From positions 62,001 to 126,000 of IMG/VR virus record IMGVR_UViG_3300020469_000008: a stretch of 64,000 nt of DNA. One strand, written 5' to 3'. Below the pieces are notes generated by a model. The model had not been told where the DNA came from and searched no databases. It saw only the letters and a list, made by a program, of their open reading frames with translations. Position 1 is the stretch's first letter; each line of letters opens with the position of its first letter. The translations under genes were made by a program, and so were the position numbers. The stretch comes from a virus. Positions 27,381 to 62,809 of this stretch are shown here, piece by piece.

Positions 27381-30300
27381 ATGACAGCCTTAAGAGTAAA
27401 CGAGTCTTCTGGCTCGGCCGGGTCAATACAGGTTGCCGACGGTTTCGGCGGTTTTTTATCGGGAAGTTTAACAGCCGGCCCTAACATAACTATATCAAAT
27501 GATGGAAGCGGAAGCTTTGCAATTACTGCAAGTTTAGATGCAGGAACAGCTATTGGTGAAGCTGAGGATGGAACTTATGAAGACGGTCTTTTTACTGATT
27601 TTGTAATAGATACACCCATTGGTACTGCTGTAGACAGGTTTAACGAGGTACTTAAGGCCCTCGCACCTTCACCTGCGCCAGGTTTAGATGATATAAATTC
27701 ACTACAATCCGGTACAAATTTATTTCTTTCTTTTGGGAGTTCAAATGATCAATCATCTGCTAGCCCTGCTTATGTAAGTGTTGCAGGAACAGCTGGAGTC
27801 GCTGCTGCTGTAGATGTTAATGGTGCTTATAATATAACAACAAGTAGTAACAATATTAGGTTAGGCGCTTTTGACGGCGACACACATATAAGCGGAGTTT
27901 TAAATGCTGATGTTACTGCTAACAGCCAAGGAAATAACGTCCAAAATTTTCCTGCTTTTTCGTTTGGTGATTCCGAAGTAGGGGTACTAAGACTAAATGT
28001 TAACGGCACGACAATTAAAGAAATAGACTTAACAGTGGCACAAATCGGTAGCGGTACATCAGGCTTAGGAACTGGTTCACACTTAGATGCAAGCGGATCA
28101 GGATTTAATTTATTTTCGCAACCCACAACCGGAACATTTTCAAATGGAAACGCATTTAATTCTTTTCAACACAGGACAGGACAGTTTGTTATCGCATCAG
28201 GTAGTCAAAGACGTGGCTGGAATTATGCGCGTGTTCAGCACGTAAAAAGTGGATCGACTAGCACTACAAATTATTTAGAATGGGTAAATGACGACAATAA
28301 TGACAGTCTAGCTGCTGCAGGAAACTCTATTGCATTTGAAGGCAGCGGAAGTGTACACCTTTCGGGTGTAAAATATTTTAGAAGTGGTAGCGGAACGTAT
28401 AAAGCCCGAGTAACAAATGCTTATAAGCTAGTCTATGACAATAATAATATTACTTTCACCACTAATAACAACGCACTAGAATCTTCAAGTCCTAGTTTTT
28501 CAATATCTGCACAGTCCAAACCTACAATAGGCGCTGGAGAAGATCATACAAAAGTACTTCATATTACTGGTTCTGGAACAATTTCAGCAAATTACTTTTT
28601 GAGTGGCGCGTTAACAGGATCTATAAACGTTACACACCCATTTAAATCGAACCTATCTTCAGCAGGATCTTCAGTGACATCAGGTATTTTAATGTACAAC
28701 CTGACAAATAATTCAACGTCACTCGTAGAAAACTTTAGAAGAGAGAATTTTAGAATTATAAGTGGTGCATACGATACACAAGCATCTCTCGTCGACAATT
28801 CTAATGTTTGGGACAGTACAAGACACATGACAGCGTCAAATGGAGCACACACAAACGGTCTTCAATTCTATAATACCAGACTGTATTCTCCCACAAACAC
28901 ACTTAGATCTGGTGACTTCCGTTCAACTTCAGATGGTGGTAAATTAGATAATGCTCCAAGTAACAATCCTAACTACTCAGGACAATCTGGCCTAAGGACA
29001 TTCTATCGTTGGTTTAAAAACGAAACCGGTTCTGACAAACAAGACTTTTCTATAGCAATTAACGGTGTAGGTTCAACAATTGTATCAGCAGCTACTGCAC
29101 TAAATAGTGGTAGAATAAGAGTTTTTGTTAAATTTCCAAGTGATGGTACTAGATCTACCGGGTGGTTAGATTTAGCATCCGAGTTTGTACTTGATTCTTA
29201 CGCCGATAATGATGGGGCACATACAGCAAACGGTAGTCTAAGTTTTGATAGTACACTTAACGCTACAAATATAGTAACACTGGGAACTGTAAGTGTAGGT
29301 AATAACGAATACATCGGCGTTAGAGTTGAATCGGATGCTGGATGGACTGGATATATTGATAGTATAACAGTTTCGTTTGGCGCAGGTACAGGAACAATAA
29401 CGCCAATACCTGACTTAGATGATATTGACTGTGACGATGACGGAATAGACTCAAATTTATCATTTGGTGTTTCTAAATCTATAACAGGTTATTCAAACGT
29501 AGGCAGTTCTGCAGGTTTAGGCTCAGCTGTAGATATTAATGGACTGTATAAGACAGATTCTAATTCCAACAATCTAAGGCGATCAGTATTTGCCTTTGAC
29601 AGAATAGTTGAGGGTAGACTCAACGAAGATGTGTCAGCTAATTCACCTGATTTTGTAGCAAACGCATTCTCAGACGCAAATAGTGGTTCTTTGGTATTAG
29701 AAGTCAACGGTGTTGATTTACATTCAGTTGAACTAACCGGTTCATTTAACTTGGTTGGGTCAGGAGAGCCTGGAATTGATGACGGCACAGGTGGAACATC
29801 TTTCACAAATAGTAGTGGATTTTTTGATTTAAGTGTTTGGAGACCAGCGGAGTTTGATAATGAAGTACCTCACTTTCTAGAAATACAGAGAACTGGAAAA
29901 TATCGAGTGCATACAAATGCACAAAGAAAAGGTTGGAATTACGCAAGGGTCAAGCATGTAGGGACGTGGGGCATAAGAACTACAAATTACGTTGAATGGG
30001 TTAATGACGATGATAACAATGGTTTAAGTATCGCTAACTTAACGCTAAAACCATTTAAGTCTGACACACTATTTCATCAAAGCGGTGTAAAATACTTTAT
30101 ACAACCGAGTGGTAGTTTAGAGGTGCAGATTAACAATCTTTACAGAAATGTTTACTCTGACAGTAATTCTGCTATTAGTTTTAATAATCTTAATAATGCG
30201 TCAGGTGTAAAGATAATACAGTCTGGTAGCGGACTAACTTCTACAAAAACAACTACTTCATCAACAGCAACACTTCAAAATCTTGCAACAACTACTAATT

Positions 30301-31196
30301 CAGAACAACAGCCTAGTCACGTTTCTGGATCACTACGTTTTTCTTTAACTGGATCCCTAAGTGGTTCTTATGCAAATTATACAAAACACTCAACTACAGG
30401 ATCTCTAGTTTTTGATCATCCTTTAAAAAGTAACTTGGATACACATAATACACTTGTCATGACATCGTCAGTCTTACTTGTTTACTCTTCAAGTGACACA
30501 TCAAATACAAATACATTAGAGAACTTCACAGGAGAGTTATTTAGAATTCAAAGCGGAAGTTACACCACACAGAATAGTGTTACAGATGTACTTAATAACT
30601 GGTCATCTACGGGATCATTAAACGATAATATTGGATTTCCCGGGTATTACACAGGGCTTATGCAGTTTGACACAAGACTAATAAGTCCGTTAGACGGAGG
30701 AAATACTGGTGATTTTAGAAATTACTCAGAAGGAGGTATTTTTGAAGGACCTGATTCAAATGTAAATTATAGCAGTTTAGGCATTGCAACAAGAGAATAT
30801 TATAGAGCATTTTTAAATCCTACAACTAATGATTTAGCAAGAATAACAGTATCATTAGCAGGCGATGCATCATTGGTCGGTAAGACAGGAGCAAACCAAG
30901 CGACCTTAGGTGCAAATAAAAATATATTTGTAGAAGTCAGAATACCAGGAAAAACAGCTTTTCTTGACTTAGGCAAGCCTTCAGCCGGCGCAGGAAATAT
31001 AAGCGCAGGTGATGGATGTTTATTTGGTGATTTAAATGGCACAATATCCAAAGCCGGCACATCAAATGTAATTACATTTAATGGCCAAACAGTTGATGGC
31101 ACATCCTCAGGAGCAGAATATTTTGTTATAAAGATTTCTGCGCATAAGGATTGGACTGGCTTTTTAAATTCAATTAATGTGACCTGGAGCGGATAA
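27381..31196 (+). CDS. Long tail fibre / adhesin with internal duplication
   Basis: 1271 residues, Ser/Thr/Asn/Gly-rich with many SGS and GSG turns and almost no cysteine, typical of trimeric beta-rich fibres. Two homologous halves follow a 90-residue N-terminal segment. Matching landmarks are AVDVNGAYNITTSSNNIRL against AVDINGLYKTDSNSNNLRR, RRGWNYARVQHVKSG against RKGWNYARVKHVGTW, TTNYLEWVNDDNND against TTNYVEWVNDDDNN, and VTHPFKSNLSS against FDHPLKSNLDT. It probably binds host surface structures. It overlaps the next gene by one base (TAATG) and starts the fibre cluster. Confidence 0.85.
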   Translation: MTALRVNESSGSAGSIQVADGFGGFLSGSLTAGPNITISNDGSGSFAITASLDAGTAIGEAEDGTYEDGLFTDFVIDTPIGTAVDRFNEVLKALAPSPAPGLDDINSLQSGTNLFLSFGSSNDQSSASPAYVSVAGTAGVAAAVDVNGAYNITTSSNNIRLGAFDGDTHISGVLNADVTANSQGNNVQNFPAFSFGDSEVGVLRLNVNGTTIKEIDLTVAQIGSGTSGLGTGSHLDASGSGFNLFSQPTTGTFSNGNAFNSFQHRTGQFVIASGSQRRGWNYARVQHVKSGSTSTTNYLEWVNDDNNDSLAAAGNSIAFEGSGSVHLSGVKYFRSGSGTYKARVTNAYKLVYDNNNITFTTNNNALESSSPSFSISAQSKPTIGAGEDHTKVLHITGSGTISANYFLSGALTGSINVTHPFKSNLSSAGSSVTSGILMYNLTNNSTSLVENFRRENFRIISGAYDTQASLVDNSNVWDSTRHMTASNGAHTNGLQFYNTRLYSPTNTLRSGDFRSTSDGGKLDNAPSNNPNYSGQSGLRTFYRWFKNETGSDKQDFSIAINGVGSTIVSAATALNSGRIRVFVKFPSDGTRSTGWLDLASEFVLDSYADNDGAHTANGSLSFDSTLNATNIVTLGTVSVGNNEYIGVRVESDAGWTGYIDSITVSFGAGTGTITPIPDLDDIDCDDDGIDSNLSFGVSKSITGYSNVGSSAGLGSAVDINGLYKTDSNSNNLRRSVFAFDRIVEGRLNEDVSANSPDFVANAFSDANSGSLVLEVNGVDLHSVELTGSFNLVGSGEPGIDDGTGGTSFTNSSGFFDLSVWRPAEFDNEVPHFLEIQRTGKYRVHTNAQRKGWNYARVKHVGTWGIRTTNYVEWVNDDDNNGLSIANLTLKPFKSDTLFHQSGVKYFIQPSGSLEVQINNLYRNVYSDSNSAISFNNLNNASGVKIIQSGSGLTSTKTTTSSTATLQNLATTTNSEQQPSHVSGSLRFSLTGSLSGSYANYTKHSTTGSLVFDHPLKSNLDTHNTLVMTSSVLLVYSSSDTSNTNTLENFTGELFRIQSGSYTTQNSVTDVLNNWSSTGSLNDNIGFPGYYTGLMQFDTRLISPLDGGNTGDFRNYSEGGIFEGPDSNVNYSSLGIATREYYRAFLNPTTNDLARITVSLAGDASLVGKTGANQATLGANKNIFVEVRIPGKTAFLDLGKPSAGAGNISAGDGCLFGDLNGTISKAGTSNVITFNGQTVDGTSSGAEYFVIKISAHKDWTGFLNSINVTWSG
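27655..31193 (+). repeat. Two protein-level tandem repeats of about 590 residues within the fibre gene
   Basis: Unit 1 spans about 27655-29393 and unit 2 about 29394-31193. Order and spacing of at least six motif pairs are preserved (starting PGLDDINSLQ / PDLDDIDCDD and ending WTGYIDSITVSFG / WTGFLNSINVTWS). The DNA has diverged, so this is an old duplication and not a recent copy. Confidence 0.8.
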
Positions 31197-41510: not shown

Positions 41511-42413
41511 ATGAGATTATCGAAAAGCCAGTTAAGTCTAATTATTGAAAACTATTTATTAGAAAGCGTTAATACAGAATCTATACGTTCTGAATTTGAA
41601 AAAGCAAGAGATCAACTTAAACAAGAATTTTTAAATTCAGATAAATTTGATAAAGTTGTAAGGGCTAGTGTTGGTAAAGGTTTAGACATGACGCATCTTT
41701 ATGTAGTTCCAAAAGATGATCCAATCAATAAGAATCCTGAGTTTTCTGCTTATGAAGGTTATGCACTTCACGTAAAATTTGTAAGGGGTGAAGAAAGACC
41801 TAAAAAAGAATATTTTGATACGGACATAATAAAAGACAAAGAATTGGAAAGCAAGTTTAGTTCAAAGCCTATTGTAAATCCAATTGTTGTTATATTTGAA
41901 AAAAATATAAAATCAAAAATTAGCCTTAAGCGCTTATTACTTCATGAGCTCGGTCACGTAAAAAACAATTTTTTAAAGTTTTATGCCGGAATAGATTTGA
42001 ATGTTAATGAGGTTCGAGCGGTACTTCGAAAAGATTTTCAAGGAAAGTCTATCGGTAAAATTGTAAATATACTTAGATCTGAAAAGCGCTTAGGTAGAAT
42101 TAACCCACCAGGTTTTTTAAGGCTAGTAGAACGACTTAAAAAATATTATGATGGCGTTTTTGCAGATCCAGCAGATGAATTATCAGTTGACGAGTTTGCT
42201 GTTAGAATATCGGCTTTGCAAAGAGACATTGTTGCGCAAGCTTCAGTTTCACCCCGTGCTGAAGAAGTTATGTCATTTACAAAAATGGAACGTAAATATG
42301 GGATAGACGCAGCCGGCTTAGCACTATTTTTGGAAAAAAATGTTACATTTGAAAAGATACAAGCAGTGGCACAAAACATTAAAAAAAGTAACACAAAAAG
42401 TGCAACAGGGTAA
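41511..42413 (+). CDS. Tag-bearing zinc metallopeptidase-like protein (putative virion protease)
   Basis: 300 residues. The N-terminus MRLSKSQLSLIIENYLLESV is the shared tag with likely cleavage at LLE18|S19. A zincin motif, LLLHELGHVKNNF, lies at residues 142-154 (HELGH 145-149), preceded by a strand (PIVVIFEKN) as in metallopeptidases. A third zinc ligand could come from the downstream helices, for example Glu in DPADELSVDEFAVR, a gluzincin-like arrangement. It is the clearest enzymatic cargo among the tagged proteins. It sits between nucleotide-metabolism genes, four bases after the HAD fusion. Confidence 0.72.
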   Translation: MRLSKSQLSLIIENYLLESVNTESIRSEFEKARDQLKQEFLNSDKFDKVVRASVGKGLDMTHLYVVPKDDPINKNPEFSAYEGYALHVKFVRGEERPKKEYFDTDIIKDKELESKFSSKPIVNPIVVIFEKNIKSKISLKRLLLHELGHVKNNFLKFYAGIDLNVNEVRAVLRKDFQGKSIGKIVNILRSEKRLGRINPPGFLRLVERLKKYYDGVFADPADELSVDEFAVRISALQRDIVAQASVSPRAEEVMSFTKMERKYGIDAAGLALFLEKNVTFEKIQAVAQNIKKSNTKSATG

Positions 42414-42473
42414 AATATTGTGTATAATAATAATGTGGATAACACAACAAACTAAAACTAATCAGGAGAAAAA

Positions 42474-44315: not shown

Positions 44316-45707
44316 ATGAAAATTACACGACGACAATTGAGACGACTATTAAGTGAAAGACTGTTAGTAGAAGCATCTGCTGAAGAATTAGCAAATATGA
44401 AGGGCACATATTCTATAAACCCACAGTCTGCGCAGTCACTAGGATTCGCCGGGGCTCAATCAGGCGCCGGACAAATAAAGGTCGGTCCTCGAGGCAACGT
44501 GAACGTTGGAACTAAGGATGGAAATTTTATCCGTGAAATCAAACCATCAGAAGTCACTCCGGAGCAACTAAATTACATAACACTCGGGTATGATAGAAAA
44601 CAAGCAGCAAATAATACCGTCATGGGGGAAATGAGCACTTATTTCAGAAAAAATGCAGGGTACTACAAGGTCAACAATCAATCCGGTGTACCTGCAGGAG
44701 CCACACACATTAGAATTTATGGTGATGCTAAATACCGATATATCAATTTCAATGAAAAACCAGAAAAATATGTAGGTGCCAAAGAACCAATTGCACCCTC
44801 TGTATTCCTCGGTTGGAAAAGCTTCATCGATGGTTTGACGAAAGACAGCAACCCGAGCAGTGCTGATACTTCCACTGAAGGTGAAACAGACACCAGCGCT
44901 GAAAGAGACGGTGAACAGCAACAACAACAGCAGCAACAACAGCAACCAAAACCAGAAAAGAAGAATAAACCAAAAAAATCAGCTGATAAAGATAAGAAAG
45001 TTGCTTTCATAAGAAAAGTTATTGGTGATGACGCTCCTGGCAAGTGGAACAAAGAATCAGATAAAAAGTGGAAAACTTGGGTCGAAGGGCCATACTACGC
45101 AGCAGGCGTACGCACATTTCAAAACTTTTATGCGATGGTGCAATTAGGTAAAAACAACAAAACTAATGCAACAGAAGAGGATTTTGATGCAGCTCACAAA
45201 GAAAACAACGCTGTCAGTTTAGCTAAATTAGCGGGATTCAAACCAACAATTTCAGGTGTCTACAACATGTGCAAAGAAATTGATGAAATGTCGAAAGAAG
45301 ATCTTCAAGCTACAGCAATGGCAATAACTGCTACTACTGAAGGAGAAACAAACACCGCGGCGAGCAAAGCAGTGGACAAAGATGAAGTAATAACTCAATC
45401 ATTTACCGACGATATTAAGGCTGAGATGTTTGGGGATGAAATTGCCAAAATTCAAGATCCAAGAGAAAAGTCTCGAGCAGTCAAAAACGTAGTAAACGCG
45501 TACAACAAGAAGAAAGAAGAATTAAAGAAAAAAGGCGACGAGAGGGAAATTCAAAATTTGGATAGAGGATTTAAGCTTTTTAAGAAAAGGTCTAAAGCTT
45601 CGAAAGAATTTGAAGCTGCATCTGAAAAGGTTGATGAAATAAAAGACCTGCAAGAATCGTTAAGCAGGGGCGCACTATATAGAAAGCATTACTACGGAAG
45701 ATACTAG
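44316..45707 (+). CDS. Tag-bearing (putative capsid-targeted) protein with poly-Gln linker
   Basis: 463 residues. The tag is very clear: MKITRRQLRRLLSERLLVEA, with predicted cleavage LVE19|A20. The following 160 residues are mixed alpha/beta. Next comes a low-complexity linker (Asp/Ser/Thr/Glu, then ten Gln in a row near residues 200-210, then Pro/Lys), and a helical C-terminal half rich in Lys, Glu and Ala. It has no recognised catalytic motif. The gene stands alone between two transcription units and ends tail-to-tail with a minus-strand gene, stops overlapping by three bases. It is a probable internal head protein. Confidence 0.68.
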   Translation: MKITRRQLRRLLSERLLVEASAEELANMKGTYSINPQSAQSLGFAGAQSGAGQIKVGPRGNVNVGTKDGNFIREIKPSEVTPEQLNYITLGYDRKQAANNTVMGEMSTYFRKNAGYYKVNNQSGVPAGATHIRIYGDAKYRYINFNEKPEKYVGAKEPIAPSVFLGWKSFIDGLTKDSNPSSADTSTEGETDTSAERDGEQQQQQQQQQQPKPEKKNKPKKSADKDKKVAFIRKVIGDDAPGKWNKESDKKWKTWVEGPYYAAGVRTFQNFYAMVQLGKNNKTNATEEDFDAAHKENNAVSLAKLAGFKPTISGVYNMCKEIDEMSKEDLQATAMAITATTEGETNTAASKAVDKDEVITQSFTDDIKAEMFGDEIAKIQDPREKSRAVKNVVNAYNKKKEELKKKGDEREIQNLDRGFKLFKKRSKASKEFEAASEKVDEIKDLQESLSRGALYRKHYYGRY

Positions 45708-48494: not shown

Positions 48495-49019
48495 ATGAAA
48501 ATAACACGTAGACAATTAAGGCAATTGGTTGTAGAAGCAGCGATGGTAAGCGATGATCCTTTGATAATGCAAGTTACTAGTATGAACAGTTACTATGATC
48601 TAGTTGAGGTTTGCGAAAGAACAAACAATGTAGGGTTAGTAAACGCTTTATTGAAAGCAGTTAGAGAAAGAAACGTTGGCGGATTAAAACACATCGGTAG
48701 ATTTGGGATCGGTTTTATTCCTGTTGATCGCCCTGGACAACCAGCATCTTACAAGGTAACATATGCAGATACACAAAGAGCAGTAAAGGAAATTGATGAA
48801 AAATCTTACAAGTATTTAAATTATAACTTAAAACTCCAAGATAGCGGCGCATTGGCTCATTTATTTAATCCGTGTGCAAAAGCATTGAAAACAGCAGCTA
48901 AAGAGGCGGGAAGATTAATACAAGATGCTATCGATAATCCAGATCGCTATGCTGCACCTGAAAGAACATTTTTGCAAAAAGCAGGGAGTTTTTTAACAGG
49001 AAAAGGATATAGCGAGTGA
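48495..49019 (+). CDS. Tag-bearing (putative capsid-targeted) protein
   Basis: 174 residues from ATG 48495, supported by TTGGAG; an in-frame TTG at 48483 is less likely. The N-terminus MKITRRQLRQLVVEAAMVSD is nearly identical to the tag of the 44316 protein, with cleavage predicted at VVE14|A15. The remainder is a compact mixed fold (VGLVNALLKAVRERNVGGLK, FGIGFIPVDRPGQPASYKVT) without a recognised motif. It sits between a zinc-ribbon gene and the polymerase III gene. Confidence 0.65.
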   Translation: MKITRRQLRQLVVEAAMVSDDPLIMQVTSMNSYYDLVEVCERTNNVGLVNALLKAVRERNVGGLKHIGRFGIGFIPVDRPGQPASYKVTYADTQRAVKEIDEKSYKYLNYNLKLQDSGALAHLFNPCAKALKTAAKEAGRLIQDAIDNPDRYAAPERTFLQKAGSFLTGKGYSE

Positions 49020-52637: not shown

Positions 52638-53732
52638 ATGCAAATAAGCAGATTAAATCTAAAAAAACTCATAAAAACGTTATTGAACGAAGATTACGAA
52701 GGTTTTATTGGCGGCCCTTCACCTGGGGAAGGTAAAGTTACAACAATGTCTGGGGACGAATTAAATAGAATTTCTGCTGAACTTAAAGGCAGAGACTTAA
52801 GTCAGATACCACCAAGTTTGCAAAAGAAAATTGGAAAGATAGCAGATAGAGCACCAGCAAAATTAAAAAAAAGTGCAGCAAGATATTTTAAAGGAAAATC
52901 ATTTTTAAAGAAAGCAAGTCAAGTTTTTGGAAGATCTTTTCCTGATTCTGATGTTTTTCTTGTGCCTTTTGCTGGGGGATCCCGAGAAGCTGCTGATTTA
53001 ATTTTTGGTTATGACGACGATTTTACACAGAGTGACTTTGCATATTCAAGGGCAACGCCGGAACAACGAGAGTATTTTTCTGACAAAGATTATAATCTAA
53101 TGTCACCTCAGCGGATGGCGATGGCTAGAAACAGGCTTACATCGATGGATATAAGAAGACATTTAATTTTTGATCTATTTGCAGAAGGAATTAATATGCT
53201 TTCAAACTTAGGTGTAACAATTCAAGAAGCAGAAAAACTAAACATAGAAAACGACATTGTTTTTGTACCCATTGCGTCAGCACAACCTGGAAAATTTTTG
53301 GCAACACCCCACATGATTCTACATGCACTGATAGACACAACAGGTGAAAAAGGTGGTACAGAGTTAGATGAAATAGTCGAGCCGCTACATCGAGAAATGT
53401 TGTCAATTGCAAATGATCTTGGTCTAAGTAGAAACTTAGTAAAGGAAGCCTATCCAGACAACGAATATTTCGATGCTTTCGAGTCACTAGCAACCACAAA
53501 AGCTGGGCGGATGAAAATGATACAAACAACTTCTGATATGGTTTCTGAGATGTTAGTACAGGAATTAGCACAATATGGAAATAAAGGCTTGAGATATAAT
53601 CTAAGTAGTCTAGCACAATTTCCAGAGGCAACAAAAAGTAAACTTGCAGACTTCAAGGTTTCTATTGAGAATACAGCAGCACAAATTAGAGAGTTGCTGA
53701 AAGGAAAAATTGTCTTAATAAATGTTGTGTAG
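52638..53732 (+). CDS. Tag-bearing (putative capsid-targeted) protein
   Basis: 364 residues. The N-terminus MQISRLNLKKLIKTLLNEDY follows the tag pattern with LNE18|D19 as the possible cleavage site. The body is mostly helical, with RDLSQIPPSLQKKIGKIADR, a SYxR-like FAYSRATPEQREY patch and TPHMILHALIDTTGEKGGTE. I recognise no catalytic motif. The gene lies between dnaE and the small leaderless-looking gene at 53772. Confidence 0.62.
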   Translation: MQISRLNLKKLIKTLLNEDYEGFIGGPSPGEGKVTTMSGDELNRISAELKGRDLSQIPPSLQKKIGKIADRAPAKLKKSAARYFKGKSFLKKASQVFGRSFPDSDVFLVPFAGGSREAADLIFGYDDDFTQSDFAYSRATPEQREYFSDKDYNLMSPQRMAMARNRLTSMDIRRHLIFDLFAEGINMLSNLGVTIQEAEKLNIENDIVFVPIASAQPGKFLATPHMILHALIDTTGEKGGTELDEIVEPLHREMLSIANDLGLSRNLVKEAYPDNEYFDAFESLATTKAGRMKMIQTTSDMVSEMLVQELAQYGNKGLRYNLSSLAQFPEATKSKLADFKVSIENTAAQIRELLKGKIVLINVV

Positions 53733-57946: not shown

Positions 57947-58267
57947 ATGAAAGTAACTAAAAATGCAATAAAAAATATCTTAATTTTAAGACAATCTTAC
58001 GGAGGTGAAACTTCATCACTAAGATTTGGTTTGACGGGTGGTGGGTGTTCAGGATACAAGTACATATTAGAGTTTGTAGACACAACTACTCCAAATGATT
58101 TGGTATTTAACTTTGATAAATTTAATTTAATTGTTGATAAACAACATATGGTTCTTTTAAAAAATTCAACAATCGATTGGAAGGACTCATTGATGGAGTC
58201 AGGTTTTGACATCATAAACCCACAAGCGAAACAACCTTGTGGTTGTGGTGAAAGTGTAAATTTTTAG
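57947..58267 (+). CDS. A-type iron-sulphur carrier (IscA/ErpA-like)
   Basis: 106 residues, the normal length. The three ligand cysteines are in place: GGGCSGYKYILEFVD (first) and the C-terminal CGCGESVNF pair. The strands between (LVFNFDKFNLIVDKQHM) align with E. coli IscA. A-type carriers transfer iron or 2Fe-2S and 4Fe-4S clusters to target enzymes. It is encoded eight bases before an IscU gene, forming an Fe-S assembly pair in the phage. Confidence 0.92.
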   Translation: MKVTKNAIKNILILRQSYGGETSSLRFGLTGGGCSGYKYILEFVDTTTPNDLVFNFDKFNLIVDKQHMVLLKNSTIDWKDSLMESGFDIINPQAKQPCGCGESVNF

Positions 58268-58275
58268 GAGTAAAT

Positions 58276-58689
58276 GTGCGCTACAGTGAAAAAGTAAATG
58301 ATCATTTTGCAAACCCGAGAAACGTAGGGAGTCTAGATAAAGATTCGACGCAAGTAGGGACAGCTGTTGTTGGCGCACCTGCCTGTGGTGACGTAATGCA
58401 ACTACAACTAAAAATATCTGATGAGGGAATTATAGAAGATGCAAAGTTTAAAACATTCGGTTGTGGATCAGCTATAGCTTCAAGCTCTCTTGTTACTACA
58501 ATGGTAAAAGGTAAAAACTTATTAGAAGCTAGTTCGATTAAAAATATTCACATTGCAAAAGAATTAGAATTACCTCCCCAAAAGATTCACTGTTCTGTTC
58601 TTGCAGAAGATGCAATTAAAGCAGCAATCAAAGATTACCAAGAAAAAAATAGACAAACAAATACGGGAAAGAAAAAAGATGAGACCTAG
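58276..58689 (+). CDS. iscU: Iron-sulphur cluster scaffold IscU
   Basis: 137 residues from GTG 58276 behind TAGGAG. By eye it is very close to E. coli IscU along the whole length: YSEKVNDHFANPRNVGS, GAPACGDVMQLQLKI, FGCGSAIASSSLV, and LELPPQKIHCSVLAEDAIKA. All three cluster cysteines and the key Asp are conserved. The Hsp70 recognition motif LPPVK reads LPPQK. IscU assembles 2Fe-2S clusters with IscS, which is not encoded here and would be the host's. The closeness suggests rather recent acquisition from a proteobacterium. It overlaps the deaminase by 11 bases. Confidence 0.95.
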   Translation: MRYSEKVNDHFANPRNVGSLDKDSTQVGTAVVGAPACGDVMQLQLKISDEGIIEDAKFKTFGCGSAIASSSLVTTMVKGKNLLEASSIKNIHIAKELELPPQKIHCSVLAEDAIKAAIKDYQEKNRQTNTGKKKDET

Positions 58690-59373: not shown

Positions 59374-60051
59374 ATGGATAAATTGTTTAACGGAAAAATT
59401 AAAGACGTAATACGTGATACGTTAAGGGTTGACGAAGCTTTGACAGCATCTGAGAAAAAATTTACTTTCAATTCAGACTTTTTAAGTAACGACAACTTTC
59501 AAAATCATATTGAGTTGTATCAAGGATATCTTAAGAACTTTAATGAAGTTAGTGCAAAACTTGATACTGCTGACAAACAAAATGTTAATTGTAATCATTC
59601 AGAATTCAGATCACTAAAACTTGATGAAACATTTAATATGAATGGCGTGTATTTGCACGAGCTATATTTCGCAAATATAGGCGATATTCATTCTGAAATT
59701 AAAATGGATTCCCTCGCTTATATGCGCTTATCCAGAGACTTTGGTAGTTTTGATGCTTGGCAAAAAGATTTTATTGCATGTGCAGCAGCCTCACAATGTG
59801 GATGGGCTGTCACCTACTTTAACACATACACACAGACTTATATGAATGCTGTTATCGATTTACATACAAACAATATTCCGTTTGGCACATATCCTGTTAT
59901 TGTCATGGATGTTTGGCAACACGCATACTATCGTGACTACTTAAAAGATGTTACTACATACACTAGAGCCATGATGAAATTATTAAGATGGCCTGTTATA
60001 GAAGAACGTGTCAAAAAAGCAGACAAAATATTACAAGTTCTCAGGAGTTAA
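59374..60051 (+). CDS. Fe/Mn superoxide dismutase with N-terminal extension
   Basis: 225 residues. All four metal ligands of the Fe/Mn family can be placed: His45 (FQNHIELYQGYLKNFNEV), His95 (GVYLHELYFANIG), Asp179 and His183 (VMDVWQHAYYRDY). The FGSFDAWQKDF and CGWAVTYFN blocks are also typical. Compared with E. coli SodB (ligand His26) there are about 20 extra N-terminal residues, MDKLFNGKIKDVIRDTLRVD and on, forming a basic-hydrophobic helix ending VDE21|A22. That matches the cleavage pattern of the tagged proteins, so the enzyme may be packaged in the virion. It would turn superoxide into peroxide and oxygen. Confidence 0.85.
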   Translation: MDKLFNGKIKDVIRDTLRVDEALTASEKKFTFNSDFLSNDNFQNHIELYQGYLKNFNEVSAKLDTADKQNVNCNHSEFRSLKLDETFNMNGVYLHELYFANIGDIHSEIKMDSLAYMRLSRDFGSFDAWQKDFIACAAASQCGWAVTYFNTYTQTYMNAVIDLHTNNIPFGTYPVIVMDVWQHAYYRDYLKDVTTYTRAMMKLLRWPVIEERVKKADKILQVLRS

Positions 60052-60052
60052 T

Positions 60053-60652
60053 ATGAGTGACAAACTATATAAATTTTTATTTGAACAGGATGAAGACTTA
60101 GGCGACGCGCCAGAGGGAGGAGTCAAAGTAGACACTCAACCTAAAGCACGCAAGGCAGATGATTCTGTTGATGATCAGATCGATTCCTTAATTCTATTAT
60201 ATGAAAAAAGGGCAATTAGAGATGACGAAGACAACTTAATGGAGTCCTTAAATAGAACTTCTCTAAAGTATTTATTTGAACAAGAAGAGGAAGAACCAGC
60301 TGAGGAAGAACCAGCTGAAGAATCTGAAACTGAACCTACAGGGTCAGAAGAAATAACAACAACCGCAGCAGTTTCAGAGCCGGTTCCTGACATAGACATC
60401 GACAAATTCACAATTAAAATCGCACGTTTAATTATGAATCACAGACAATTGCTTGATGTTGAAACTGCAATTATAAATAGAACAAAAAACTTCTTAGACG
60501 AAAATTATGGTGATAAATTTGTAGTACGTTATTTAGATGTACTAGAAGAACAGTTTGGTATATCAGCACAAGAATTTGACATGAAGCCTGTTGAGGACGC
60601 ACCTTACGCGATCGGGGCAAATCCTGCTGGAGCCGGAATGAGTGGAGGCTAA
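60053..60652 (+). CDS. Acidic protein with repeated LFEQ motif, putative head-associated protein
   Basis: 199 residues from ATG 60053 (AGGAG precedes). KLYKFLFEQDE at the N-terminus is echoed by LKYLFEQEEE at 71-80, followed by a repeat of acidic EEPAEE units. The C-terminal half has a helix-rich region with RLIMNHRQLLDVETAI and FVVRYLDVLEEQFGI. Both LFE sites roughly fit an (L/I)xE protease site. The composition is scaffold-like. Next to SOD and a ribbon-helix-helix-like gene; no family is recognised. Confidence 0.55.
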   Translation: MSDKLYKFLFEQDEDLGDAPEGGVKVDTQPKARKADDSVDDQIDSLILLYEKRAIRDDEDNLMESLNRTSLKYLFEQEEEEPAEEEPAEESETEPTGSEEITTTAAVSEPVPDIDIDKFTIKIARLIMNHRQLLDVETAIINRTKNFLDENYGDKFVVRYLDVLEEQFGISAQEFDMKPVEDAPYAIGANPAGAGMSGG

Positions 60653-60653
60653 A

Positions 60654-60923
60654 ATGTCTAGACAATATGATGTGTTAGTAAAGAAATCAGTACACTTTAA
60701 CTTGACAAAAGATAGTCATACTGCACTCAAAATGGCATGCACAGCACGAAGCCTATCAATGCAAGAAGTTATTGAAGCGTTTGCCAAGAGAATTGAAATA
60801 GAAGATAATAAGATGATTAAATTCTTAGATGATGTAGTTGAAGAAAAGAAACACAAAGCCAAAAAAAGTTTCAGCAAATCAGATGTTGAAAGTATATTTA
60901 GTATGATAGAAGACGAGGAATAA
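60654..60923 (+). CDS. Ribbon-helix-helix-like small protein
   Basis: 89 residues from ATG 60654, chosen because GGAGG lies just before it. KSVHFNLTKDSHTALKMACT, then SLSMQEVIEAFAKR, is a strand-helix-helix unit like ribbon-helix-helix DNA-binding proteins (Arc/MetJ type). A Lys/Glu-rich helical tail follows, ending in IFSMIEDEE. It could be a small transcriptional regulator; operators cannot be identified by eye. Confidence 0.55.
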   Translation: MSRQYDVLVKKSVHFNLTKDSHTALKMACTARSLSMQEVIEAFAKRIEIEDNKMIKFLDDVVEEKKHKAKKSFSKSDVESIFSMIEDEE

Positions 60924-60924
60924 C

Positions 60925-61383
60925 ATGAAAATATCAAGAAGACAACTTAGAAAAATTATTTTAGAAGCATTTCCAAGAGATGAATATGGATATGATGCTT
61001 TAAAAACACAAGCAGAATTAGACGATGGCGACGGAGAATACGCACTGTCATCATCACAAAGACACTCTTTAGACCGCCAAGAAGAATTAAAAGATATGAA
61101 ACTCAATGATGATAATGCTTACCTTGTGCATGTATACTTAGCCTCTGCACTTAGTGACGGTGATAAGATGGCAAGAGTTCCAGCGTGGGGTGTGGCTGCT
61201 AGTCAGCTGTCGACACGTTTTTCAGCAAATTCATCTGATGAAATAATGCCTGAAGTTGAAGAGGTATTAAATAGCTTTTTATCTAACCCGAAACTTGGGA
61301 TGATGGATAAAAGAAGACTCCAACGCGAAATACCTAAATTTAAGGACATGTTACGAAGAGCGATGGATAATCCTGAATTTTAA
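60925..61383 (+). CDS. Tag-bearing (putative capsid-targeted) protein
   Basis: 152 residues behind GAGGAA. The N-terminus MKISRRQLRKIILEAFPRDE shows the tag in its purest form with ILE14|A15. The mature part is helical and acidic (LDRQEELKDMKLND, AYLVHVYLASALSDGDKMAR, PEVEEVLNSFLSNPKLG). No enzyme motif is evident. It precedes holin-like and other tag-bearing genes. Confidence 0.65.
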   Translation: MKISRRQLRKIILEAFPRDEYGYDALKTQAELDDGDGEYALSSSQRHSLDRQEELKDMKLNDDNAYLVHVYLASALSDGDKMARVPAWGVAASQLSTRFSANSSDEIMPEVEEVLNSFLSNPKLGMMDKRRLQREIPKFKDMLRRAMDNPEF

Positions 61384-61395
61384 AAAGAGGTTTTT

Positions 61396-61665
61396 ATGGG
61401 AATAGAAGAAATTAAAGACGCAGTAAAAAGTTTACCTGCTGAAAAAGTAGAAGCACTTAAAAAAGATTTATATCTTGACACTAAGACAAAAGGTATTCTT
61501 GATAGTATGCAGGAAAAGATTGTTTCACGAAAATTGTTAGTGTTTGGTACCGCGACTGCATTATTAGTATATGCAGGTTTAGATGCAGATATATGGGGAA
61601 TGATTGCAATGATGTACATTGGTGGACAATCAGCAATTGATTTCGCAAAAATATGGAAGGGTTAA
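61396..61665 (+). CDS. Holin-like membrane protein
   Basis: 89 residues behind AAAGAGG. The first 44 residues are a charged helix. Two hydrophobic segments follow, KLLVFGTATALLVYAGL (46-62) and IWGMIAMMYIGGQSAI (67-81), then a short basic end. The size and two-span layout fit class II holins, and AMMYIGGQSAIDF resembles holin segments in marine phages. It could open the inner membrane for the endolysin at 26382; the assignment is based on topology. Confidence 0.55.
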   Translation: MGIEEIKDAVKSLPAEKVEALKKDLYLDTKTKGILDSMQEKIVSRKLLVFGTATALLVYAGLDADIWGMIAMMYIGGQSAIDFAKIWKG

Positions 61666-61669
61666 TAAA

Positions 61670-62065
61670 ATGAAAAAATTAAATAGAAGAAAGCTAAGAG
61701 ATGTAGTTTTAAAAGAAACAAAAAAAATCCTTAAAGAATTTCGAAACATCAATCAACTTGACGTGGTACATGTAGCACCTGTTGTTAGAGACTTTAATAA
61801 AAAAGTCGTTGCTGCGCTCGCAAAATACAATACAAATCAACTGCCTCAAGATTTATCTGAAAATGGTAGGCAGATAGCATACCAGTTTGAAACAATGATT
61901 GCATCAACAAATTCAATCATGGGTCCAGATCGCACAACTGATGATAGAATTGCAACATGTGATAGAGCAATCAATGATATACAAGAGATGAAAATATTAC
62001 TTAAACAATCATCCCGCGTTGATTATGATGACACAGTCCTTACATCTAGACCGTATGATAACTAA
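61670..62065 (+). CDS. Tag-bearing (putative capsid-targeted) protein
   Basis: 131 residues from ATG 61670, chosen over an overlapping in-frame TTG at 61619. The N-terminus MKKLNRRKLRDVVLKETKKI is a divergent tag with candidate sites LKE16|T17 and LKE23|F24. The rest is helical (RDFNKKVVAALAKYNTNQLP, DRAINDIQEMKILLKQSSRV). No function is recognised. It lies between membrane proteins. Confidence 0.55.
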   Translation: MKKLNRRKLRDVVLKETKKILKEFRNINQLDVVHVAPVVRDFNKKVVAALAKYNTNQLPQDLSENGRQIAYQFETMIASTNSIMGPDRTTDDRIATCDRAINDIQEMKILLKQSSRVDYDDTVLTSRPYDN

Positions 62066-62078
62066 TCTTGGATTATAA

Positions 62079-62414
62079 GTGTTCGAAAAAATAAAAGAAT
62101 ATTGGCAGTGGATTTTAGGCGTTATCGTAGCGATATTAGGTGTTGGTGTGTTAGCATCTAAAAAAAGAGACAGTAGAACAATAGTAAAGGTAAGTGACGG
62201 TGAGCTTGAAAAGATCCGCGGCGAGAAGATTATCTCGGCCCAAGAAGACATATATGAACAACATCTTGAGAAAAGGTCTACTGCGCAGGAAGAGTTTGCG
62301 CGCAAGAGCGAGAAGATTGCTAAAATTAAATCCGCGCGCCAAAAAGAATTAGAAAACAATCCCGAAGAACTTGATAAAATCTTAAAGGAGAAATACAAGT
62401 TAAAGGGGGAATAA
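62079..62414 (+). CDS. Membrane-anchored coiled-coil protein (spanin-like candidate)
   Basis: 111 residues from GTG 62079. One N-terminal transmembrane segment, YWQWILGVIVAILGVGVLA (8-26), is followed by a long Lys/Glu-rich coiled coil (EDIYEQHLEKRSTAQEEFAR). This is the topology of an inner-membrane spanin (Rz-like). Its stop overlaps the next gene, which encodes a secreted coiled-coil protein. Together they could be a spanin or tail-entry membrane pair; the lysis role is inferred. Confidence 0.5.
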   Translation: MFEKIKEYWQWILGVIVAILGVGVLASKKRDSRTIVKVSDGELEKIRGEKIISAQEDIYEQHLEKRSTAQEEFARKSEKIAKIKSARQKELENNPEELDKILKEKYKLKGE

Positions 62415-62809
62415 TGTTTTTACTTGCTTTTATAAGCACACTATGGGCAGCTGATGTTGATTATGCAAATGTTGATAAAGGTGATGTAGCGCCATTTACT
62501 GGCAAGCTGCTAACACATGATGCATTGTCACAAATAATTACAACTCATGAAAAAGAATTACTTCAAGCAGATCTGGATAAAGAATTTGAACTGCAAAAAG
62601 TGACAGACACACTTAATCTTAAATATGACTTATACTATGCGCGGGCAGAAGCTGACAAAGCGATGTATCAACAAATGATTGAACTGCGTGACGAAGAAAT
62701 AAAAATACAATCGCGTAAAGATTGGATTCAACGTCTAGCTTTCTTTGGTGGTTTTGCATTAGGGACAGCAACGACAATAGGAATTACGTATTCTGTTAAT
62801 CAAAATTAG
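62414..62809 (+). CDS. Secreted coiled-coil protein with C-terminal membrane segment
   Basis: 131 residues. Residues 1-13 (MFLLAFISTLWAA) look like a signal peptide with Ala-Ala before DVDYAN. The middle is a coiled coil (EKELLQADLDKEFELQKVTD) and residues 107-127 (QRLAFFGGFALGTATTIGIT) are a transmembrane helix. Proteins of this plan occur near lysis genes in marine phages. It overlaps the preceding gene (TAATG), making a probable functional pair that bridges membranes at lysis. No lipobox is visible, so it is not a typical outer-membrane lipoprotein spanin. Confidence 0.5.
   Translation: MFLLAFISTLWAADVDYANVDKGDVAPFTGKLLTHDALSQIITTHEKELLQADLDKEFELQKVTDTLNLKYDLYYARAEADKAMYQQMIELRDEEIKIQSRKDWIQRLAFFGGFALGTATTIGITYSVNQN

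Follow-up and report, generated by a model that had tools for sequence, protein, structure and literature searches.

A superoxide dismutase-fold protein with a putative capsid-targeting propeptide in large T4-like phages, and the apparent loss of its metal site in several lineages

Results

An Fe/Mn superoxide dismutase homologue in a large phage genome

The window analysed here is a stretch of 64,000 nucleotides that corresponds to positions 62001-126000 of a 202,054-bp phage record. It carries the gene for a superoxide dismutase (SOD)-fold protein, directly followed by a gene for a very acidic protein and a gene for a small conserved protein; these and the related features of the genome are collected in Table 1. 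The first-pass annotation had put the SOD at 59374-59500, which picks out the right gene but covers only its first 127 nt. Pfam searches with the open reading frame returned Sod_Fe_C (E=1.6e-17) and no match to Sod_Fe_N, and no PHROGs family matched the protein. Its best solved relative by sequence was the Fe-SOD of Aquifex pyrophilus (1coj, E=5.7e-31), and the same structure was ranked first by Foldseek (TM 0.81/0.87, E=8.7e-14) when the search was made with an AlphaFold2 (AF2) model built on a 51-row family alignment (pLDDT 89, pTM 0.82). By domain match, alignment and predicted fold, the window protein is a homologue of the Fe/Mn superoxide dismutases.

Table 1. Features of the SOD locus and of related genes. 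Positions are those of the window unless marked as record positions; an arrow marks a predicted cut.
Feature	Position	Strand	Basis or occurrence
SOD-fold protein gene, SodFM family, probable head-internal protein	59374..60051	+	225 aa; Sod_Fe_C, 1coj, AF2/Foldseek
Propeptide / putative capsid-targeting sequence, residues 1-21 (MDKLFNGKIKDVIRDTLRVDE)	59374..59436	+	not in cellular SODs examined; in 106 phage relatives
Predicted prohead-protease cleavage site E21↓A22	59434..59439	+	E in 106/106; L/I-X-E rule (PMC9026906)
Metal ligand His45 (first)	59506..59508	+	aligns with first ligand of 1coj; retained in 87/106 phage relatives
Metal ligand His95 (second)	59656..59658	+	1coj and family alignments
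His164, C-terminal water-coordinating His, Fe-leaning or cambialistic type	59863..59865	+	alignment position; PMC10172142
Metal ligand Asp179	59908..59910	+	1coj and family alignments
Metal ligand His183	59920..59922	+	1coj and family alignments
Very acidic downstream partner, LxE-type motifs	60053..60652	+	homologue at 94/106 SOD loci, 91 within 200 bp
Conserved 89-aa protein of the same gene block	60654..60923	+	homologue at 97/106 SOD loci, median distance 641 bp
Protein bearing the tag of the other type, MKISRRQLRKIILE↓A	60925..61383	+	homologue at 0/106 SOD loci
MKITRRQLRKLI.E-tagged examples	60925-61383, 61670-62065, 44316-45707, 48495-49019, 52638-53732		about 20 more over the record
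Peptidase_S77 prohead protease	record 41853-42455		PF03420 E=4.2e-28; phrog_207

The ligand set of three His and one Asp is complete in the window SOD, and a re-count of the residues bore out the numbering given earlier to H45, H95, D179 and H183, as well as to E21 and A22. In E. coli SodB the first ligand is at residue 26; the direct comparison made here was with 1coj. In that alignment, the His found at position 30 of the E. coli enzyme has no clear counterpart in the phage protein. After the first ligand the window SOD reads HIELYQGY and the Aquifex enzyme HFEAHYKGY, so that the phage protein is one residue shorter and lacks the second His of HxxxH, a common but not universal second-sphere motif of the N-terminal domain. 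The HXXXHH motif is also incomplete in SodFM4 enzymes (PMC10172142), and the missing His therefore does not exclude the window protein from SodFM membership or from activity. By the trends described in the same study, His164 suggests an enzyme of Fe-leaning or cambialistic type, and the full metal site makes it likely that the window phage encodes an active SOD that is Fe-preferring or cambialistic.

Phage relatives and the gene neighbourhood

Scans of viral contigs returned 57, 80 and 69 overlapping loci. De-duplication left 107 distinct proteins, of which 106 were counted as phage, including the window protein and L102, a sequence found in a cellular genome assembly (see below). Relatives were gathered by similarity, a procedure that may pass over members that are very divergent or have no tag, and the SOD phages are known here from assembled metagenomic contigs only. 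A 199-aa 'phage' SOD in MW462191 was set aside, lying as it does amid bacterial-type metabolic genes.

The acidic partner, which had no Pfam or PHROG match, begins in several relatives with an MKxTRxxLRxLIxE-like (RRQLRK-like) N-terminus; a prohead core protein is possible, as a guess from composition. A dCMP deaminase homologue lies upstream at 98 SOD loci. In the window genome the SOD gene is outside the head module, separated from the protease gene by about 79 kb and from the major capsid protein (MCP) gene by about 74 kb, with nucleotide-metabolism and possible lysis genes as its neighbours. When the small neighbour (window 60657-60920) was used to search for syntenic blocks without a SOD, just seven loci were found, all on SOD-carrying contigs. 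Another 24 protease-bearing contigs, which did not come from the SOD searches, had neither the SOD nor its upstream neighbour DHH; these contigs represent either the other half of the genome or genomes in which the block is absent.

At 57947-58689 an IscA-type carrier (Fe-S_biosyn, Cys34, 98, 100) adjoins an IscU/NifU_N scaffold (cysteines 37, 63, 106), and since a homologue of the scaffold occurred at only two SOD loci (L004, L020) and one of the carrier at none, this Fe-S pair just upstream of the SOD looks like a recent gain. Small proteins whose N-termini look like membrane segments or signals follow shortly after the SOD block, at 61396-62809, and possibly form a lysis cassette; three of them had homologues at 29-65 of the 106 SOD loci. 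Elsewhere in these genomes, a PAP2-type phosphatase (E=2.3e-14) and a Fic domain (E=4.7e-8) are fused in one phage protein (L060:9773-11071; record 29273-30574), and the products of record 132626-134224, 134248-134586, 134693-135112 and 135212-135958 resemble, by eye, GroEL, a co-chaperonin, a small heat-shock protein and a sigma factor.

A phage-specific N-terminal extension with one invariant residue

The first-pass annotation had described extra residues ahead of the enzyme that end in VDE21↓A22, and this description stands. The alignment with 1coj matches residue 33 of the phage protein to chain residue 15, which places residues 1-18 wholly upstream of the N-terminus of the cellular enzyme. 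An extension was present at the start of all 106 phage relatives, 21 residues long in the window SOD and 21-43 aa across the family, variable in both sequence and length. Start codons were picked by script, and the motif is plain in the raw sequences; a script-called length of 5 for L097 was an artefact of the start call, an upstream ATG giving the normal length.

Glu21 was found in 106/106 relatives in a MAFFT alignment, on which the placement of the site across the variable linkers depends, and it was the sole invariant position in columns 1-56. The residue after it was Ala in 72, Ser in 32 and Asn in 2. At P3, 103/106 had Leu, Ile or Val (75, 19 and 9, respectively), so that Leu or Ile occupied this position in 94/106 and the window SOD, with Val, belonged to the minority. 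Median identity to the window protein was 28% over residues 1-18 vs 56% over the mature part, and the invariance of Glu21 alone while residues 1-18 drift argues that the conservation is not due to chance. Chance and a mis-called start were accordingly ruled out, both the extension and the site being common to the 106 relatives. Within the extension, I13 and L17 are also conserved, and AF2 placed a helix at residues 7-16 with low confidence. This segment had earlier been called a basic-hydrophobic helix, but it is not basic: residues 1-21 hold five Lys/Arg and five Asp/Glu and are thus neutral, and the family mean net charge of the extension is about -0.9.

When 84,980 bacterial and archaeal genomes were scanned twice, only two relatives were recovered. 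One, L102, from a Flavobacteriales MAG, is on a phage-like contig that also encodes a DNA polymerase and has the same gene after the SOD, and it has the extension; the raw extension contains LNE↓V, and its site may be slightly displaced in the alignment from which residues were counted. The other, L103, from a Syntrophobacterales MAG, is a lipoprotein SOD with 38% identity amid bacterial housekeeping genes. Neither the extension nor the cleavage site was found in this sole cellular relative, which rules out an extension of host type and upholds the earlier suggestion of a phage-specific one: as far as the sample of 84,980 genomes goes, close bacterial SODs do not appear to carry it.

The extension end and the protease rule of the phage head

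The T4 prohead protease gp21 cleaves after L/I-X-E (PMC9026906), and packaging of the T4 internal protein IPIII requires its first 10 residues (PMC5694885). By its residues, the end of the phage SOD extension agrees with the (L/I)-x-E rule, and the extension as a whole is consistent with a capsid-targeting propeptide. A prohead protease of the S77 family is encoded in the same genome (Table 1), with a T4-type portal protein (Portal_T4, E=4.2e-74) and a Gp23-type capsid protein (E=3.3e-77) near it, and of 35 SOD contigs sampled, 27 had the protease, among them all 17 that were 150 kb or longer. The propeptide of the MCP ends in L[RK]E both in the window phage and in its relatives, and it is followed directly by a linker rich in Gly and Ser and then by the conserved shell domain. 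This boundary is independent evidence for the protease rule in the group of phages that carry the SOD.

Candidate sites of this kind are not confined to the SOD and the MCP. The motif (I/L/V)xE(A/S) was enriched at protein positions 11-20 (18 occurrences in 165 proteins), compared with 2-9 in each ten-residue bin from position 41 onwards in the same genome. About 25 other proteins of the genome start with a MKITRRQLRKLI.E-like tag that often ends in (I/L)xE↓(A/S); no known domain was found in those that were tested, and they could make up a large set of head-internal or ejected proteins. The SOD had been said to match the cleavage rule of these tagged proteins. It shares with them this rule and the general layout; the tag sequence itself, of the RRQLRK type, is not shared.

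Alternatively, the extension might stay uncleaved and act as a docking or oligomerisation helix, joining the SOD fold to another phage protein, for example the acidic neighbour, or to a replication or transcription complex. The predicted helix at residues 7-16, the conserved I13 and L17 and the strictly kept neighbour gene agree with such a role, as does the match of the family profile to PAP4/FSD3 and PAP9/FSD2, which are subunits of the plastid RNA polymerase. Docking alone, however, leaves unexplained both why an invariant Glu, followed by a small residue, stands at a constant position just ahead of the enzyme after a linker of variable length and why the site agrees with the MCP propeptide rule, and we consider this explanation very unlikely.

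Loss of the metal site with retention of the tag

All four ligands were complete in 85 of the 106 phage relatives and incomplete in the remaining 21. The replacements vary by lineage (Arg-Arg-Asp-Gly, Asn-Ser/Thr-Ser-Arg, Gln-Phe-Ser-Glu, Leu-Leu-Ala-Asp and others), and in the ligand-less members an Arg frequently stands where a His ligand was; beside Asp179, such an Arg might substitute for the charge of the metal. A maximum-likelihood tree built without the ligand columns needed four loss changes, at least three of them forced by well-supported branches, and by this reconstruction the ligands have been lost in at least three to four lineages. The tag with Glu21 was retained in 21/21 ligand-less members. 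Five of these that were tested still matched Sod_Fe_C (E=2.3e-7 to 2.7e-14), which is firmer support for the fold than the AF2 model of one of them (L056; 5-row alignment, pLDDT 60), for which Foldseek returned SODs first at a TM of about 0.4. In ligand-less pairs with measurable dS the pairwise omega was 0.016-0.045, similar to the 0.040-0.055 among intact members. The ligand-less members are thus under strong purifying selection, where measurable, and this, together with intact frames and the recurrence of the losses, ruled out pseudogenes and assembly errors. A compensating second SOD copy was sought on the same contig and found on none of the 21 ligand-less contigs, which are fragments. 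As a separate observation, the 241,978-bp contig G017, whose SOD-fold protein (L165) is ligand-less, has two adjacent major capsid protein genes (L192, L199).

Sixteen residues were invariant in 106/106 relatives (E21, N57, E85, N101, S107, G124, F126, W129, Q130, D132, A135, N158, P174, D188, W206 and R212). None of the metal ligands is among them, so selection appears to be strictest on the tag site and on non-ligand residues, not on the metal site. Since the family persists without metal ligands, superoxide protection cannot be its sole function. Protection against an oxidative burst at entry had been proposed for the enzyme; as a general function this is not supported, with at least 21/106 relatives lacking ligands while still tagged and under purifying selection.

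These results also bear on whether the protein is an ordinary auxiliary metabolic SOD, soluble and unpackaged, that lowers superoxide in the infected cell and has a harmless or stabilising extension. The ligands are all intact in the window protein, its neighbours are nucleotide-metabolism and not head genes, and SODs encoded by freshwater phages have been interpreted as host-supporting genes (PMC6802176). However, an irrelevant extension would not keep one Glu in 106/106 relatives while the rest drifts and changes length, and the persistence of 21/106 relatives without part of the metal site, under strong purifying selection where this could be measured, is not what such a function would give. 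This seems to us distinctly unlikely.

A further idea, which is compatible with packaging, is that the family is a structural pseudo-enzyme throughout: the ligand-complete members would not be physiological SODs either, and metal would just stabilise the fold. Loss of the site in several lineages with constraint kept, the exclusion of the ligands from the family-wide invariant residues and the lack of a clear counterpart of the position-30 His of E. coli are in its favour. It is nevertheless unlikely, as 85/106 relatives keep four ligands and Y52, H164 and W181 persist across most of the family, a pattern suggestive of selection on catalysis in those lineages.

Discussion

We propose that a captured Fe/Mn SOD serves as a tagged internal head protein in large T4-like phages, a reading which, from the conserved site and the company it keeps, we would hold with a probability of about 0.7. 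The SOD would be made late, beside its acidic partner gene. Residues 1-21 would bind the prohead core and carry the SOD inside, by analogy with the T4 capsid-targeting sequence, and the phage's own gp21-type S77 protease would then cut after VDE21; conservation of the site and presence of the protease are what was observed. The mature SOD would remain with the DNA and probably be ejected with it. Some points count against packaging, namely the Val at P3 of the window SOD in place of Leu or Ile, the position of the gene outside the head module and the difference between the SOD extension and the commoner RRQLRK tag, and the conserved Glu-Ala/Ser could be retained for some other reason.

As to the history of the family, it is rather probable that a head-packaged SOD was captured and that several sublineages then dropped the metal site but kept the fold, the tag and the constraint, giving a non-catalytic head or ejected protein. 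Because these lineages have given up the site and still have both the tag and the fold, the function shared by the family must include more than dismutation, for example a head-structural, DNA-associated or host-protein-binding role.

The closest parallel to the proposed packaging is provided by the T4 internal proteins IPI, IPII, IPIII and Alt, which have a short N-terminal segment ending in (L/I)-x-E that is cut by gp21, and the window phage has the S77 protease and the gp20- and gp23-type head genes of the same system. The phage SOD extension differs in length (21-43 aa, as opposed to 10 residues in T4) and in sequence, the cargo is a SOD fold with a P3 Val in the window member, and its packaging is predicted from sequence. 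With the Aquifex pyrophilus Fe-SOD (1coj) and other SodFM proteins the phage SOD shares the fold, the four ligands, the C-terminal water-coordinating His and the C-terminal domain family; it differs in the extra, cleavable-looking N-terminus, in the spacing from the first ligand to Tyr52, which is one residue shorter, in having no clear His at the position of E. coli H30 and in the 21/106 relatives without ligands.

Other viruses also encode SOD-related proteins. To our knowledge no prohead-protease tag is present on the Cu/Zn SOD A245R of chlorovirus PBCV-1, a virus-encoded SOD too, but one of unrelated fold and from a eukaryotic virus. A245R is reported to be late, active and packaged (PMC7019647). 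The vaccinia protein A45, a Cu/Zn-type SOD homologue that is enzymatically non-functional and packaged in lateral bodies (PMC9282662), parallels the ligand-less phage members, although its fold is Cu/Zn-type and the virus and packaging route are unrelated. PAP4/FSD3 and PAP9/FSD2 are a case of the Fe/Mn-type SOD fold as part of a large assembly, as is proposed here for the phage SOD, but they belong to plant plastids and have neither packaging nor a tag. We found no report of a SOD in a phage virion in the open-access literature, which is weak evidence of absence.

If the proposal is correct, this would be, as far as we have found, the first Fe/Mn SOD that serves as tagged head cargo in phages, and a single gene family would provide a natural series from an enzyme to an apparently metal-free head protein. 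Experiments could then ask how a packaged SOD acts during infection, whether its fold is by itself of use to the head, and which partners the invariant residues contact. For the loading of cargo into capsids, too, there would be a useful model in a cleavable tag that brings folded metalloenzymes into a T4-like head.
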